64,000 bases of DNA. It comes from Hydrotalea sp. Its GTDB lineage: Bacteria; Bacteroidota; Bacteroidia; Chitinophagales; Chitinophagaceae. The translations under genes and the position numbers were made by a program. The stretch covers positions 1 to 64,000 of the forward strand of contig DAHXOT010000033.1 of the NCBI GenBank assembly GCA_027364735.1, read 5' to 3'. The notes beneath the pieces were generated by a model. That model was not told the origin of the DNA. It worked only from the letters and a program-made list of their open reading frames with translations, and did not search any database. This document shows positions 3,249 to 8,951 of this stretch, in pieces; positions within the stretch are counted from its first letter, which is position 1, and each line of letters opens with the position of its first letter.

Positions 3249-3278
3249 TTTGGTCATTTGGTTTAAAGATTACTTTTG
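3249..3278 (+). promoter_or_regulatory. Promoter of the exporter operon
   Basis: TTTG at 3249-3252 and TACTTTTG at 3271-3278 match the Bacteroidota -33 (TTTG) and -7 (TAnnTTTG) elements with 18 bases between them. The start codon at 3286 is only 7 bases after the -7 box, so the leader would be extremely short or absent. Confidence 0.55.
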
Positions 3279-3285
3279 CCACGCA

Positions 3286-3591
3286 ATGAAAAAAATAACC
3301 ATTTTACTGTTTATAATTTTTGCTACGGCGCAACTGGCACCGGCAGTAATGGTGTTTTTTTCAAAAACAACCTCTGTTTTAATAGCCGATAAAGACAAAG
3401 GTGAAGAGAAAGGAAACATTACAGATAATACTGACAGTACTGACAATAATAAAGTGAAAAAGGATTATGCTGATTTTTTACCTCAATCAGCTATTTTCAC
3501 CATTAAAGTTAATCTAATTTTCCACCTAACTGAAAAGATTCATCCTTTCCCTTACTCGGAAAAGCCCACACCACCTCCTAATGTTTGTTAA
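3286..3591 (+). CDS. Small exported protein heading exporter operon, unknown function
   Basis: I chose ATG 3286 (101 residues). It follows a promoter closely and starts with a signal-like segment (MKKITILLFIIFATAQLAPA), whereas an upstream in-frame TTG would lie inside the promoter region. After the leader come a charged, Asn/Asp/Lys-rich linker (about 38-60) and a C-terminal part with HPFPYSEKPTPPPNVC, ending in Cys. I recognise no family with certainty. It sits 73 bases upstream of an ABC-HlyD-TolC set, so it could be an accessory factor, a substrate or a sensor for that exporter. This is inference from position only. Confidence 0.6.
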   Translation: MKKITILLFIIFATAQLAPAVMVFFSKTTSVLIADKDKGEEKGNITDNTDSTDNNKVKKDYADFLPQSAIFTIKVNLIFHLTEKIHPFPYSEKPTPPPNVC

Positions 3592-3616
3592 TTAGATTGA
3601 TTTTCTAATTATTTTC

Positions 3617-3633
3617 CTCATGCTTTGCATGAG
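3617..3633 (+). other. Small hairpin between exported protein and ABC gene
   Basis: CTCATGC-TTT-GCATGAG is a perfect 7-bp stem with a 3-base loop. It lies 25 bases after the small gene and 31 bases before the ABC gene. There is no T run, so it is more likely an RNA processing or stability element than a terminator. Confidence 0.4.
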
Positions 3634-3664
3634 TGATTTTGTGTAACCAATTAACAAATATAAA

Positions 3665-5329
3665 ATGTCTACAACCATAAGCCCAATTGCAAGGATTTTC
3701 AACCTTGTAAAACTGGAACATAAAGAAATAACTGCTATATATTTTTTTGCCATACTCAGTGGATTAATTCAGCTGTCGCTGCCACTTGGTGTGCAGGCCA
3801 TTATTGGCTTTGTAATGGGTGGTGCCATGTCTACTTCACTTATTATTCTGATTGTACTGGTTATTCTCGGTGTGCTGTTTACTGGATTAATGCAAATAAG
3901 CCAAATGCGGCTGAACGAAAAAGTGCAACAGAAAATTTTTGTTCGCTATTCATTCGCTTTTGCAGAACGGCTGCCCAAACTCGATTTAAAAAAAACAGAT
4001 AGTTATTATTTGCCGGAACTCGTTAATCATTTTTTTGAGATAACTATTCTGCAAAAAGGGTTATCTAAAATGTTGTTTGAAATTCCTGCTGCTACTATAC
4101 AGGTATTATTCGGTTTGATATTACTTACATTTTATCATCCTGCATTCATATTTTTTGGCTTGATACTGGTTTTTCTTCTATGGCTGGTTCTTTATTATAC
4201 CGGCAACAGCGGAATGCAAACCAGTTTGCAAGAAAGCAACAGCAAATATGCTATCGCTGCTTGTTTTCAAGAAATGGCCCGAGCAATAAAGTCGTTAAAA
4301 TTTTCAAGTGGTGCAAAATATCATTTACAAAAAACAGATGACGAAGTGAGCCGTTATTTAGATTTCAGAACAGCACATTTTAAAATTCTTTTACAGCAAT
4401 TCTATGCATTAGTTGGCTTTAAAACCATTATAACTGCCGCCATGATGATTGTAGGATCCATTCTTTTGCTAAACCAGCAATTGAATATTGGGCAGTTCAT
4501 TGCAGCGGAGATTGTTATTATTCTTGTCATCAATTCTGTAGAAAAATTAATTGGTAATCTCGATAATGTGTATGATGTTCTTACAGCAATTGATAAGCTT
4601 GGCAAGTTTACAGATAAACCCGTTGAAGAAAATGGAACGCTTCAACTTATTCCTACCAATAATGGTGTTTCAGTAAAAATGGAAAACGTTTCTTTTGGAT
4701 ATACGCCTGATAAAAAAGTGTTTAATAAAATATCTTTAAAAATAAACGCAGGCGAAAAAGTTGCGGTGGCCGGAATGGATGGAAAAGGCAAATCAACACT
4801 TTTGAAACTGTTTACGGGTTCCTATAAAGATTTTGAAGGAGCGATTTTGATTAACAATGTTCCTATCGGGAATTATGATCTGGCATCGCTCCGTTCTCAA
4901 ACTGGTATCATGCTCAGTCAGCAGGACATTTTCCAGGGTACTTTAATTGATAATATTACAATGGGCAACCCTGGAGTTTCCTTACAAAGGGTAAATGAAC
5001 TGGCAGAAAAAACAGGATTGCTTTCCTACATAGCAACACTTAGTCTTGGGTATGATACAAAATTGGATGCGGCAGGCATTCGTTTACCAAGAAACGTGGT
5101 ACATAAAATTTTACTGGTTCGGGCATTGGTACATAACCCTTCCTTGTTATTGTTGGAAGAACCCTGGCAGGGCCTTGAGGAGAATAATAAAAAACAGGTA
5201 CAGGAAACATTGTTGCGTGAAAGTAAAAACACAACGATGCTGGTGGTAACAAATGATAGCCAATTTTTAGAGCAATGTAGTAAGGTTATTTATTTGAATG
5301 AAAATGGAATTACTATAAAAGAAAATTAA
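3665..5329 (+). CDS. ABC exporter, fused membrane and degenerate ATPase domains
   Basis: This 554-residue inner-membrane half-transporter has several hydrophobic segments in residues 20-300 and a nucleotide-binding domain in 335-550. The layout resembles type I secretion exporters without a peptidase domain. The Walker A GMDGKGKST (370-378) is intact. Where LSGGQ is expected the sequence reads LPRNVVHKI (474-482). The Walker B region reads LLLLEEP, so the usual Asp is Glu498. The D-loop is WQGLEE, and the switch His is replaced by Asn530 (VVTNDSQ). ATP could still bind, but hydrolysis may be weak or need a partner. HlyD- and TolC-type genes follow directly, so it probably powers a tripartite exporter. 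The cargo is unknown. Confidence 0.85.
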   Translation: MSTTISPIARIFNLVKLEHKEITAIYFFAILSGLIQLSLPLGVQAIIGFVMGGAMSTSLIILIVLVILGVLFTGLMQISQMRLNEKVQQKIFVRYSFAFAERLPKLDLKKTDSYYLPELVNHFFEITILQKGLSKMLFEIPAATIQVLFGLILLTFYHPAFIFFGLILVFLLWLVLYYTGNSGMQTSLQESNSKYAIAACFQEMARAIKSLKFSSGAKYHLQKTDDEVSRYLDFRTAHFKILLQQFYALVGFKTIITAAMMIVGSILLLNQQLNIGQFIAAEIVIILVINSVEKLIGNLDNVYDVLTAIDKLGKFTDKPVEENGTLQLIPTNNGVSVKMENVSFGYTPDKKVFNKISLKINAGEKVAVAGMDGKGKSTLLKLFTGSYKDFEGAILINNVPIGNYDLASLRSQTGIMLSQQDIFQGTLIDNITMGNPGVSLQRVNELAEKTGLLSYIATLSLGYDTKLDAAGIRLPRNVVHKILLVRALVHNPSLLLLEEPWQGLEENNKKQVQETLLRESKNTTMLVVTNDSQFLEQCSKVIYLNENGITIKEN

Positions 5330-5339
5330 AATAACTGCA

Positions 5340-6659
5340 ATGACACGGAATTCAAACTATGTATCCTATAGCAAAATATACCTGCATAACGAAAGCAGTC
5401 GCATCCGTTATTGGTTTTATGGCTTTATTATTTTACTGATCATCTTTCTTTTTTTACCATGGACGCAAAACATAAGAGCTAAAGGTACAGTAACTACATT
5501 AAGGCAGGAACAACGGCCACAGCAAATGAACACTATCATACCAGGAAAGATTGTGAAGTGGCATGTGAGGGAAGGCGATTTTGTAAAAGCTGGTGATACA
5601 ATTGTGCAACTTGCCGAAATAAAAGATGATTATCTCGACCCTTCACTCGTGAGCAGAACTAAAGAACAGTTAACAGCCAAAGAACTTTCTGTTGATTATT
5701 ATCAGAACAAAGTAGAGGTAACAGAATCGCAGATTAACGCATTAAATGCAGGTAGAGATTTAAAAAAGAATCAATTGCAGAATAAAATGCTGCAAGTACA
5801 ACTGAAAGTACAAAGCGATAGTATGGACTTGATAGCAGCAATTAATGATTTTAAAATTGCTGATGTGCAGTACAAACGTCAAAAAACAATGTTTGATAGT
5901 GGACTGGTTTCTCTTACACAATTAGAACAACGCAACCAAGTGTATCAATCTGCAATGGCAAAAAAAGTTTCAGCAGAAAATAAACTCGCTGCGGCACGAC
6001 AAGATTTAATCATCACCCAAATTGAAATGAACAGTGTGGAACAAGAGTATGCAGAAAAAATTTCAAAAACACAGGGCGAGCAATTTCAATCATTATCACA
6101 AATAGCAACCGGTAAGGGAGATATTGCAAAATTGCAAAATCAATACACCAATTATAGCATAAGGAATGGCTTGTATTATATCACAGCACCGCAGAGCGGG
6201 CAGGTAACAAAAGCAAAAAAAGCCGGTATTGGTGAGATAGTGAAAGAAGGTGAAATGCTGATTGAGATTGTGCCTGATAAAATTCAGTATGCTACTGAGT
6301 TGTTTGTAAAACCAGTTGATTTACCATTAGTGGCCAAAGGGCAAAAGGTTCGTTTTCTTTTCGATGGTTTTCCCGCAATTGTTTTTAGTGGATGGCCCAA
6401 TGCAAGCTATGGCACTTTTGGTGGTATCATTGTAGCAGTTGAAAATTCAGTAAGTGTGAATGGAAAGTTTCGTGTGCTAGTGGCTGAAGATCCGAATGAT
6501 AAACCATGGCCTCAGCAATTGAAAGTAGGAACCGGAGCAAACGGAATTGCATTATTGAAGAATGTACCGGTATGGTATGAATTGTGGCGAAACGTGAATG
6601 GCTTTCCGCCGGATTATTATAAACCGTCTACTGAACAGAAAAAATTAAAAGAACAATGA
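5340..6659 (+). CDS. HlyD-family periplasmic adaptor
   Basis: This 439-residue protein has a short cytoplasmic N-terminus, one membrane segment at about 25-42 and a lipoyl-like half (IPGKIVKWHVREGDFVKAGD). A long predicted coiled coil follows at about 100-260. The second lipoyl half and beta-barrel (YYITAPQSGQVTKAKKAG) complete the membrane-fusion-protein plan. It would bridge the ABC protein to the outer-membrane channel encoded next. It starts 10 bases after the ABC gene and overlaps the TolC-type gene by 4 bases (ATGA), so the three are co-translated. Confidence 0.9.
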   Translation: MTRNSNYVSYSKIYLHNESSRIRYWFYGFIILLIIFLFLPWTQNIRAKGTVTTLRQEQRPQQMNTIIPGKIVKWHVREGDFVKAGDTIVQLAEIKDDYLDPSLVSRTKEQLTAKELSVDYYQNKVEVTESQINALNAGRDLKKNQLQNKMLQVQLKVQSDSMDLIAAINDFKIADVQYKRQKTMFDSGLVSLTQLEQRNQVYQSAMAKKVSAENKLAAARQDLIITQIEMNSVEQEYAEKISKTQGEQFQSLSQIATGKGDIAKLQNQYTNYSIRNGLYYITAPQSGQVTKAKKAGIGEIVKEGEMLIEIVPDKIQYATELFVKPVDLPLVAKGQKVRFLFDGFPAIVFSGWPNASYGTFGGIIVAVENSVSVNGKFRVLVAEDPNDKPWPQQLKVGTGANGIALLKNVPVWYELWRNVNGFPPDYYKPSTEQKKLKEQ

Positions 6660-8080
6660 AAATTAAAATAACAATTCTATTCTTTTTTATAACAAAACTT
6701 CTTTCTGCACAAACTATTATGGTGCATAGTAAGGATAGTTTACAAACATTATCTGAAAAGCAGGTGATGGAAATTGTAAAGCAGTTTCACCCGGTAGCTA
6801 AACAGGCAGATATTAATATTGAAAAAGCTAAAGCAGATATAACAACAGCAAGGGGAATGTTTGATCCCCTGCTTTCCACCAAAATAAGTAACAAAACTTT
6901 TGATGGCACGGAATATTATAATCATTTTCAACCCGAGTTGGTAATACCAACTTGGTATGGAATTGAAATTAATGCAGGGTTGGAAAACCTGAGTGGTAGC
7001 AGAACCGATCCGCAGGAAACATTGGGTAAAACAAGTTTTGCCGGCATCACCGTACCGCTTGCAAAGAATTTATTAATGGATAAAAGAAGAGCAGCATTAC
7101 AGCAAGCAAAAATTTTTAAACAATTAAGTGAAGTAGAGAGAAGAGCAATACTAAATGATTTGCTACTCGATGCAATGAAAACATACTGGCAATGGGTACG
7201 AGAATATCAAGTGATGAAAGTGATTAGTGATGCAGTAAAAGTGAATGAAAAAAGATTTGAATTAGTAAAAGTTGCTTTTCGCCAGGGCGACCGTCCGGCA
7301 ATTGATACGCTGGAAGCATTGGTGCAGTTGCAAAATTTTAAACTGATGTTGAATGAATCACAACTAAATTTTCAGAATGCAGGTCTTGAGCTTTCTGTTT
7401 TTTTGTGGAATAAAAATGCAGAACCAATTACACTGCTTGTATCTGTTGTTCCTGATGATGATTGGAAAAAAATCAACATCACTGAATCTTCATTGCCATT
7501 ACTTGAAGATTTGGTGAATACCGCTAAAACCAATCATCCTGATTTATTGCAATATAATTTTAAGTTGGATGTACTTGATGTAGAAAAGAAATTAAAATTG
7601 CAAAACTTGTTACCAAGTGTAAACTTTCGTTACAATCAATTGGGAAAGGGATATGACATTATCAAAAATACAGCAGCTCCTTTATTTGAAAACAATTATC
7701 AATACGGTATTAGTTTTGGGATTCCGCTGCGATTATCAGAAGACCGTGGTGAATATAAAAAAGCGAAACTAAAAATACAGGAAACAAACTTGCAACGCAG
7801 CCAAAAAACACTGAGCGTAGAAAATAAGGTAAGAACCTATTACAACGAGTTGCTAACGCTTCGCAGTCAGGTGGCTTTACAACAGCAGCAGTATAATAAT
7901 TATTTGGTTTTGCAGCGTGGAGAGGAAACGAAATTCTTTAATGGAGAAAGTTCCTTGTTTCTTGTAAACAATCGGGAGAATAAAGCATTAGAGGCTTTGC
8001 AAAAATTAGCTGAATTGCAAACAAAGTATTTTAAAACGCTCAATAATCTTTATTGGGCAAGTGGGATATTAGTGCAATAA
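6656..8080 (+). CDS. TolC-family outer-membrane efflux channel
   Basis: This 474-residue protein has a signal peptide (about 1-19, ending LLSAQ) and two helical/strand repeats of the outer-membrane efflux protein family, each with a long alpha-helical hairpin rich in Gln, Lys and Leu. The length is normal for TolC-like channels. The start codon overlaps the adaptor stop by 4 bases. It should trimerise in the outer membrane and form the exit duct for the ABC-HlyD pump. Heavy-metal efflux channels share this fold, but the adjacent ABC gene argues for an ABC-driven system rather than RND efflux. Confidence 0.88.
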   Translation: MKIKITILFFFITKLLSAQTIMVHSKDSLQTLSEKQVMEIVKQFHPVAKQADINIEKAKADITTARGMFDPLLSTKISNKTFDGTEYYNHFQPELVIPTWYGIEINAGLENLSGSRTDPQETLGKTSFAGITVPLAKNLLMDKRRAALQQAKIFKQLSEVERRAILNDLLLDAMKTYWQWVREYQVMKVISDAVKVNEKRFELVKVAFRQGDRPAIDTLEALVQLQNFKLMLNESQLNFQNAGLELSVFLWNKNAEPITLLVSVVPDDDWKKINITESSLPLLEDLVNTAKTNHPDLLQYNFKLDVLDVEKKLKLQNLLPSVNFRYNQLGKGYDIIKNTAAPLFENNYQYGISFGIPLRLSEDRGEYKKAKLKIQETNLQRSQKTLSVENKVRTYYNELLTLRSQVALQQQQYNNYLVLQRGEETKFFNGESSLFLVNNRENKALEALQKLAELQTKYFKTLNNLYWASGILVQ

Positions 8081-8168: not shown

Positions 8169-8951
8169 ATGATACAACTAATTGGGCTGCTTGCAATTTC
8201 TTGGTTACTAATCTGGCTTTTTGAAAAAGGGAACTTATCGGTTTTAGGATTGGCACCTACTAAAGATAGACTGAAATATTTCGCAATCCTTTTTATTGTT
8301 TCTGCCATACTTTCTGCGACAGCTTTTCTTTTGAGAATGTACATTGCAAAAGAAGAATACACAATATCTCAATCTTTGACAACAAAGACAGTTTTACTTG
8401 AAACCTGGTATCAGTTCAGGACAGTTTTGACAGAAGAATTACTTTGCAGGGGTATGTTACTTTACATTCTAATTAAAAAAATTGGCAGACAAACTTTCTT
8501 CGAAACATTTTCAGCAGAAAATACAGCGGAAAATATGAGCAAGTATTTAGAAGAAGGTTTTTCATTGGAAAAATTAACCAACGAACTTAATAATAGCAAC
8601 GCTGAATTTTATTTTGCAACACTTGGTAATAATGTAATTGGATATTTAAAACTCAATTTTGGTCAATCGCAAACGGAATTAAAAGATAACAATGCAGTTG
8701 AAGTGGAGAGAATTTATGTGCTAAAAGAATTTCATGGTAAAAAGGTTGGTCAATTGCTGTATAACAAAGCCATTGAAGTGGCACAACGATTAAATGCACA
8801 CTATGTTTGGTTAGGTGTTTGGGAAAAAAATATAAGAGCTATTAATTTTTATAAAAAAAATGGGTTTATAGAATTTGATAAACATATTTTTAAATTAGGC
8901 AATGACGAGCAAACTGATATTATGATGAAATTACCAATAAGCAACAATTGA
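8169..8951 (+). CDS. Chimeric CPBP-protease / GNAT acetyltransferase ORF
   Basis: This is a 260-residue in-frame fusion of two unrelated partial families. Residues 1-103 look like the N-terminal half of a CPBP intramembrane protease: two hydrophobic segments and the first motif EExxxR as E89-E90-LLC-R94. The later His motifs of that family are absent. From about residue 105 the sequence becomes a GNAT acetyltransferase (IGRQTFFETFSAENTAENM onward, with VERIYVLKEFHGKKVGQLLY as the acetyl-CoA site and NFYKKNGF near the end). The GNAT part lacks its usual first strand and helix. The join is near 8478-8493, where both families have a KKIG-like stretch. Deletion between two neighbouring genes is the simplest origin. 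The protease part is probably dead; the acetyltransferase may be impaired. Confidence 0.75.
   Translation: MIQLIGLLAISWLLIWLFEKGNLSVLGLAPTKDRLKYFAILFIVSAILSATAFLLRMYIAKEEYTISQSLTTKTVLLETWYQFRTVLTEELLCRGMLLYILIKKIGRQTFFETFSAENTAENMSKYLEEGFSLEKLTNELNNSNAEFYFATLGNNVIGYLKLNFGQSQTELKDNNAVEVERIYVLKEFHGKKVGQLLYNKAIEVAQRLNAHYVWLGVWEKNIRAINFYKKNGFIEFDKHIFKLGNDEQTDIMMKLPISNN

Follow-up and report, generated by a model that had tools for sequence, protein, structure and literature searches.

The exporter operon in the 64-kb window (the whole stretch of Hydrotalea sp. DNA that was analysed) encodes a member of an ABC-type family that is widespread among bacteria (Bacteroidota) and whose ATPase part, judged from its motifs, is disabled in almost every member. 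One large branch that is apparently functional has lost the nucleotide-binding domain (NBD) altogether, suggesting that these pumps run on another energy source. All results are computational; they establish degeneration across the family, purifying selection, and loss of the NBD with retention of the operon. The energy probably does not come from ATP hydrolysis, and we favor, with moderate confidence, a tripartite exporter family that has become independent of canonical ATP hydrolysis and in which the pair of transmembrane domains (TMDs) is most likely driven by an ion gradient.

ORF calls place a small ORF and the genes for an ABC protein, an HlyD adaptor, and a TolC channel in line on the forward strand (Table 1), confirming the four-gene operon described in an earlier note on this DNA. 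Pfam backs the last three genes, with ABC_membrane and ABC_tran both above cut-off in the ABC protein, and gives no family match for the small protein of the window. No TetR gene adjoins the window operon. In a comparison set of 60 related genomes, one genome per species, orthologues at 38–95% identity stand well apart from ordinary paralogues at ~25%, and the order ABC-HlyD-TolC is retained at nearly all orthologous loci, with a single ABC subunit per operon at family loci. No recurring cargo gene was found among the operon neighbors at family loci, and no RTX or other protein cargo gene was seen adjoining the operon. After the operon, the ORF at 8169–8951 resembles a truncated CPBP-type membrane protease (EELLCRGM) in its N-terminal third and continues as a GNAT acetyltransferase; Pfam matches the GNAT part only, and the two may have been fused by deletion.

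Table 1. Features of the exporter operon, in window positions.
Feature	Position	Strand	Description
Bacteroidota-type promoter (putative)	3249-3278	+	-33 TTTG, 3249-3252; -7 TACTTTTG, 3271-3278
Small ORF	3286-3591	+	101 aa, end ...TPPPNVC; signal/TM-like start, acidic Lys/Glu patch; candidate translation-arrest leader peptide
PPPN codons	3571-3582	+	within the small protein family, PPP[NDE] alone is strictly conserved in sequence
5' arm of predicted 13-bp RNA stem	3581-3593	+	pairs with 3649-3661; would be covered by a ribosome pausing at PPPN
Hairpin CTCATGC-TTT-GCATGAG	3617-3633	+	between small gene and ABC gene
3' arm of predicted 13-bp RNA stem	3649-3661	+	ends 3 nt before the ABC start codon
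ABC exporter-like protein	3665-5329	+	554 aa; TMD residues ~1-330, degenerate NBD ~336-554
HlyD-type periplasmic adaptor	5340-6659	+	Pfam HlyD_3
TolC-type outer-membrane channel	6656-8080	+	Pfam OEP; start overlaps HlyD gene end

The earlier note had reported that the ABC protein keeps Walker A and departs from the canonical sequence in the signature, Walker B, D-loop, and switch His, and all of these are as it stated. Walker A (GMDGKGKST, with K376) is intact, the signature reads LPRNVVHKI instead of LSGGQ, E498 replaces the Walker B Asp (LLLLE-E), the D-loop is QGLEE, and the switch His has become N530. The catalytic Glu (E499), absent from that note, is retained. AlphaFold predicts a full type IV exporter fold for the window protein (pLDDT 86) with the NBD fold intact, and the model matches PDB structures of PCAT1, TAP, TM287/288, and HlyB with TMq up to 0.90. 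The protein therefore belongs with ABC exporters by fold but not by the functional ATPase motifs, that is, LSGGQ, the Walker B Asp, and the switch His.

These changes are common to orthologues at 38–60% identity. The earlier note had named canonical homologues as the sign that this copy is simply decaying; we searched for them, and none with a Gly-Gly signature occurs inside the family (0/66 NBD-bearing members, Bacteroidota). Among the same 66 members, the Walker B Asp is retained in 10 and the switch His is mostly Asn or another residue, while the Walker A Lys is retained in 63 (lost in three) and the catalytic position is acidic in 58. Because ten distant relatives keep the Walker B Asp (10/10), the catalytic Glu (9/10), and the His (7/10), the ancestor of the family was probably near-canonical, with degeneration following later. 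The dN/dS values between the window genome and its congener are 0.065 (TMD) and 0.070 (NBD); the window NBD is therefore not free to drift. A pseudogene-like copy undergoing simple decay could account for degenerate motifs, but this explanation is already contradicted by the changes common to orthologues, the dN/dS of ~0.07, and an operon intact at nearly all loci; we give it a negligible chance, and decay of the window copy alone is rejected. The common motif changes and purifying selection thus bear out the proposal that these proteins form a genuine subfamily, with an ATPase site whose degeneracy is conserved.

Conservation is distributed differently from that of a canonical exporter. Across 14 genomes, the mean identity to the window protein is 0.54 for the TMD versus 0.43 for the NBD, with the TMD higher in all 14, whereas a canonical exporter from the same genomes shows the reverse pattern (TMD 0.47 versus NBD 0.72; paired p 1.2e-4). 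ATP probably retains some role in NBD-bearing members, given that the window NBD evolves under constraint and still has Walker A and the catalytic Glu. One alternative is that NBD-bearing members, including the window copy, are still run by ATP, perhaps slowly, through an atypical site made of Walker A, Glu at Walker B, and a catalytic Glu/Asp, and that only the NBD-less clade has switched energy source. The retention of the Walker A Lys and of the acidic catalytic residue in most members, the NBD dN/dS, and the predicted intact NBD fold all speak for it; yet the signature Gly-Gly is missing throughout, the His is mostly replaced, even the Walker A Lys has been lost in three members, and the NBD is less conserved than the TMD. 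We regard it as rather unlikely. The unusual use of ATP that the earlier note suggested is possible for the window copy but offers no explanation for the NBD-less clade.

Searches with a TMD profile found that degeneration has gone beyond what the earlier note guessed, to a whole clade without an NBD. The NBD-less proteins are 332–369 aa long and end just past TM6. They form one clade in the tree (support 100/100, one change of state), sister to the long NBD-bearing form L152; several independent losses are rejected by this single origin. One further candidate (L114) was dismissed as a separate NBD-less case, as its gene is merely cut by a contig end. A profile of the NBD-less clade retrieved 80 loci in named genomes, 63 of them NBD-less, with carriers in Pedobacter, Mucilaginibacter, Sphingobacterium, Dyadobacter, Chitinophaga rhizophila, Hymenobacter, Spirosoma, Larkinella, and others. 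At these 63 loci, HlyD is present in all and TolC in 61, the HlyD gene usually overlaps the TMD gene stop (8 bp), and the closest pairs of NBD-less TMDs have dN/dS of 0.03–0.07. In ten NBD-less genomes no family-like NBD was found elsewhere, the best matches being ordinary ABC proteins at ≤31% identity. The retained adaptor and channel, the low dN/dS, and the lack of a family NBD elsewhere together indicate that a TMD-HlyD-TolC machine is maintained without an ATPase of its own. For one NBD-less member (L110), a model with moderate confidence (pLDDT 74) matches the TMDs of those structures that the window protein resembles. A single genome has three family copies (L195, L196, G937:C7), of which one has an NBD and two are NBD-less.

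The ICL1 motif PELxNRFFD, in the coupling-helix region, is kept in NBD-less members (E118 in 28/28), and the L110 model has a short helix at 121–128. This retention, which sets them apart from SbmA, leaves room for a docking partner. In TAP, TM287/288, and TmrAB, as is common, a half-exporter with one degenerate site acts as a partner. Both this precedent and the kept coupling-helix region would fit a degenerate protein whose partner is a canonical ABC subunit, or the docking of a separate ATPase in trans. However, each operon encodes only one ABC subunit, the search of the ten NBD-less genomes (which covers family-like NBDs) found no solitary one, and although four further exporters of the window genome pass the Pfam cut-off, the one sampled has canonical orthologues (LSGGE/Q). 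Pairing or docking in trans is improbable in our judgment, though a distant generic ATPase could still act in trans.

The leading inference remains ion-gradient coupling, which on the parallel with SbmA is the most likely energy source. An ABC-derived TMD dimer in the inner membrane would form a tripartite envelope exporter with the HlyD adaptor and the TolC channel. The window NBD is still folded, as predicted, and may bind ATP through its kept Walker A, but has lost the parts for sensing and hydrolyzing ATP across the dimer interface (LSGGQ, Walker B Asp, and switch His). The TMD pair would then alternate on an ion gradient, as in SbmA, passing substrate to HlyD-TolC. A TetR-type regulator adjoins the operon in 43/103 loci, which fits inducible small-molecule efflux; the frequent TetR control suggests that export of small molecules may be inducible, and we infer both the export direction and the small-molecule substrate. 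Positions 85 and 282 are acidic in 104/104 members and position 293 in 103/104; E282 lies in TM6, where the aligned residue in PCAT1 is Asn. These three positions may be candidates for coupling, though they are suggestive only: the distant near-canonical members also have acidic residues at 85 and 282, which are thus not specific to ATP-free forms. The loss of catalysis while the TMD and channel parts are kept could also mean that the TMD is a passive or gated conduit, or an anchor for HlyD-TolC, that performs no active transport, with any NBD acting as a CFTR-like regulatory ATP sensor. Strong TMD conservation, including the intracellular loops and the acidic TM residues, instead suggests conformational cycling, and TetR regulation fits efflux; we consider a conduit or anchor quite unlikely.

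Several known systems resemble the gradient-driven exporter proposed here. SbmA is a type IV ABC-exporter TMD that lacks an NBD and has become proton-coupled (PMC13316013). The SbmA/BacA (SLiPT) secondary peptide transporters share with the NBD-less clade, though not with the window protein, a TMD of this type whose NBD is lost (PMC13316013); in our family, by contrast, the TMD works with HlyD and TolC, the coupling helices are not lost, as the ICL1 motif attests, and there is no TM0 domain. Neither the window protein nor the NBD-less L052 gave a Pfam SbmA/BacA match. Type I secretion and tripartite ABC exporters (HlyB-HlyD-TolC, LapB/LssB) share the gene order ABC-HlyD-TolC, which the window has, and the type IV exporter fold (PCAT1, HlyB), and some family members have a ~150-aa N-terminal domain where the C39-like domain sits. 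The differences here are an ATPase site that is degenerate or absent, frequent TetR control, and no protein cargo gene seen adjoining. The window proteins fall far below the NCBIfam type I secretion cut-offs (LssB 195.5 versus 693.1 bits, type_I_hlyD 82.9 versus 208.65 bits, and type_I_sec_TolC 52.2 versus 225.15 bits). Members of ~640–830 aa carry an N-terminal extension (L117-L122, L124-L128), possibly a diverged C39-like domain; in the two ~730-aa members tested, this domain received no Pfam name. Heterodimeric exporters such as TAP, TM287/288, and TmrAB also have a degenerate ATP site, but only one subunit is encoded here, and both sites of a homodimer would be degenerate.

The energized inner-membrane parts of tripartite pumps in a current review are ABC, RND, and MFS transporters (PMC8277102). 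We found no report in the open-access literature of a Bacteroidetes ABC-HlyD-TolC system that is degenerate or ATP-free. As the family includes near-canonical, degenerate, and NBD-less members, the switch from primary to secondary transport, parallel to that of SbmA, can be tested directly, and annotations as "ABC transporter ATP-binding protein" in Bacteroidota may mislead on the energy source. A bolder combined reading is doubtful but conceivable: a new energy class of tripartite Gram-negative exporter, in which an ATPase-free ABC TMD is run by an ion gradient together with HlyD-TolC, with members such as the window copy as living intermediates between ATP-driven and ATP-free pumps, and with the operon controlled by a PPP[NDE]-ended arrest peptide like SulP operons of this phylum.

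The small gene at the head of the operon is far less constant than the degenerate ATPase. It heads 17/103 loci, TetR takes its place in 43, neither was seen in 43, and the two never occur together (103 loci, counted without kinship correction). Of the joint conservation that the earlier note proposed to check, the motif changes stand (no Gly-Gly signature in 66/66), but co-conservation of the upstream small gene is not supported. Nor does the protein qualify as a co-conserved partner or cargo, a role disfavored by its restricted distribution, its replacement by TetR, and the presence of relatives before SulP transporters. Little of the protein sequence is conserved across the family beyond a hydrophobic start, an acidic patch of Lys/Glu, and PPP[NDE] at the C-terminus; the terminal Cys that had drawn attention is real in the window copy but not conserved across the family, whereas the PPP[NDE] tail is. 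Tails of this kind occur in 17/66 small ORFs directly upstream of the ABC gene versus 5/2641 elsewhere (no correction for kinship). The -7 box lies 10–22 nt before the small-gene ATG in 13/18 small-headed loci versus 10/1114 control ORFs (again uncorrected for kinship), and a transcript would therefore begin at or just before that ATG. The suggestion that the operon has its own promoter gains from this recurring position, though not from the isolated pattern, which the window contains no more often than chance predicts (5 found versus 7.8 expected).

We tentatively propose, from sequence features, that the small protein may be a translation-arrest peptide. Like published arrest peptides (PMC10987492), it is encoded by a small upstream ORF, has an N-terminal secretion/TM signal (judged by eye from the hydrophobic N-terminus) and a conserved C-terminus, and has a spacer of >30 aa. 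SecM, ApdA, and the Bacteroidota NAP-stop/NSP-stop uORFs, which lie upstream of sec/yidC genes (PMC10987492), likewise combine an N-terminal localization signal, a long spacer, and a conserved Pro-containing C-terminus; Bacteroidota have Pro-stop arrest candidates before sec genes (PMC10987492). The differences are the PPP[NDE] motif and a position upstream of transporters rather than protein-localization genes. In SecM-SecA a stem masks the downstream start; the window has a predicted 13-bp pairing between the codons that follow PPP and the sequence just upstream of the ABC start (z -3.63). A stem over the downstream start (p≤0.02) occurs in 6/23 loci including the window versus 2/53 control gene pairs, without correction for kinship, but the Pedobacter- and Sphingobacterium-type loci that were tested lack it. 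Thr before PPP is reported to weaken stalling in E. coli (PMC4176338), and Thr directly precedes PPP in the window protein. The hairpin at 3617–3633 is a perfect 7 bp and is present in the congener (L031) too.

A profile search placed relatives of the small protein before SulP transporters in other genomes and in the window genome itself (C11:128515-128811), and four of the five PPP[NDE]-tailed small ORFs found elsewhere are SulP-linked. PPP-ended small proteins lie directly upstream of SulP anion transporters at L313 (G000:C11:128515-128811), L304-L307, L314, and L315, and some SulP-linked PPP-ended small genes have a stem that covers the start of SulP. In some relatives of the window's own family, SulP and carbonic anhydrase genes are in line with the operon; at two loci (L131 and L134), SulP, carbonic anhydrase, ABC, HlyD, and TolC genes follow one another on one strand, and at L134 a PPP-ended small gene precedes SulP.
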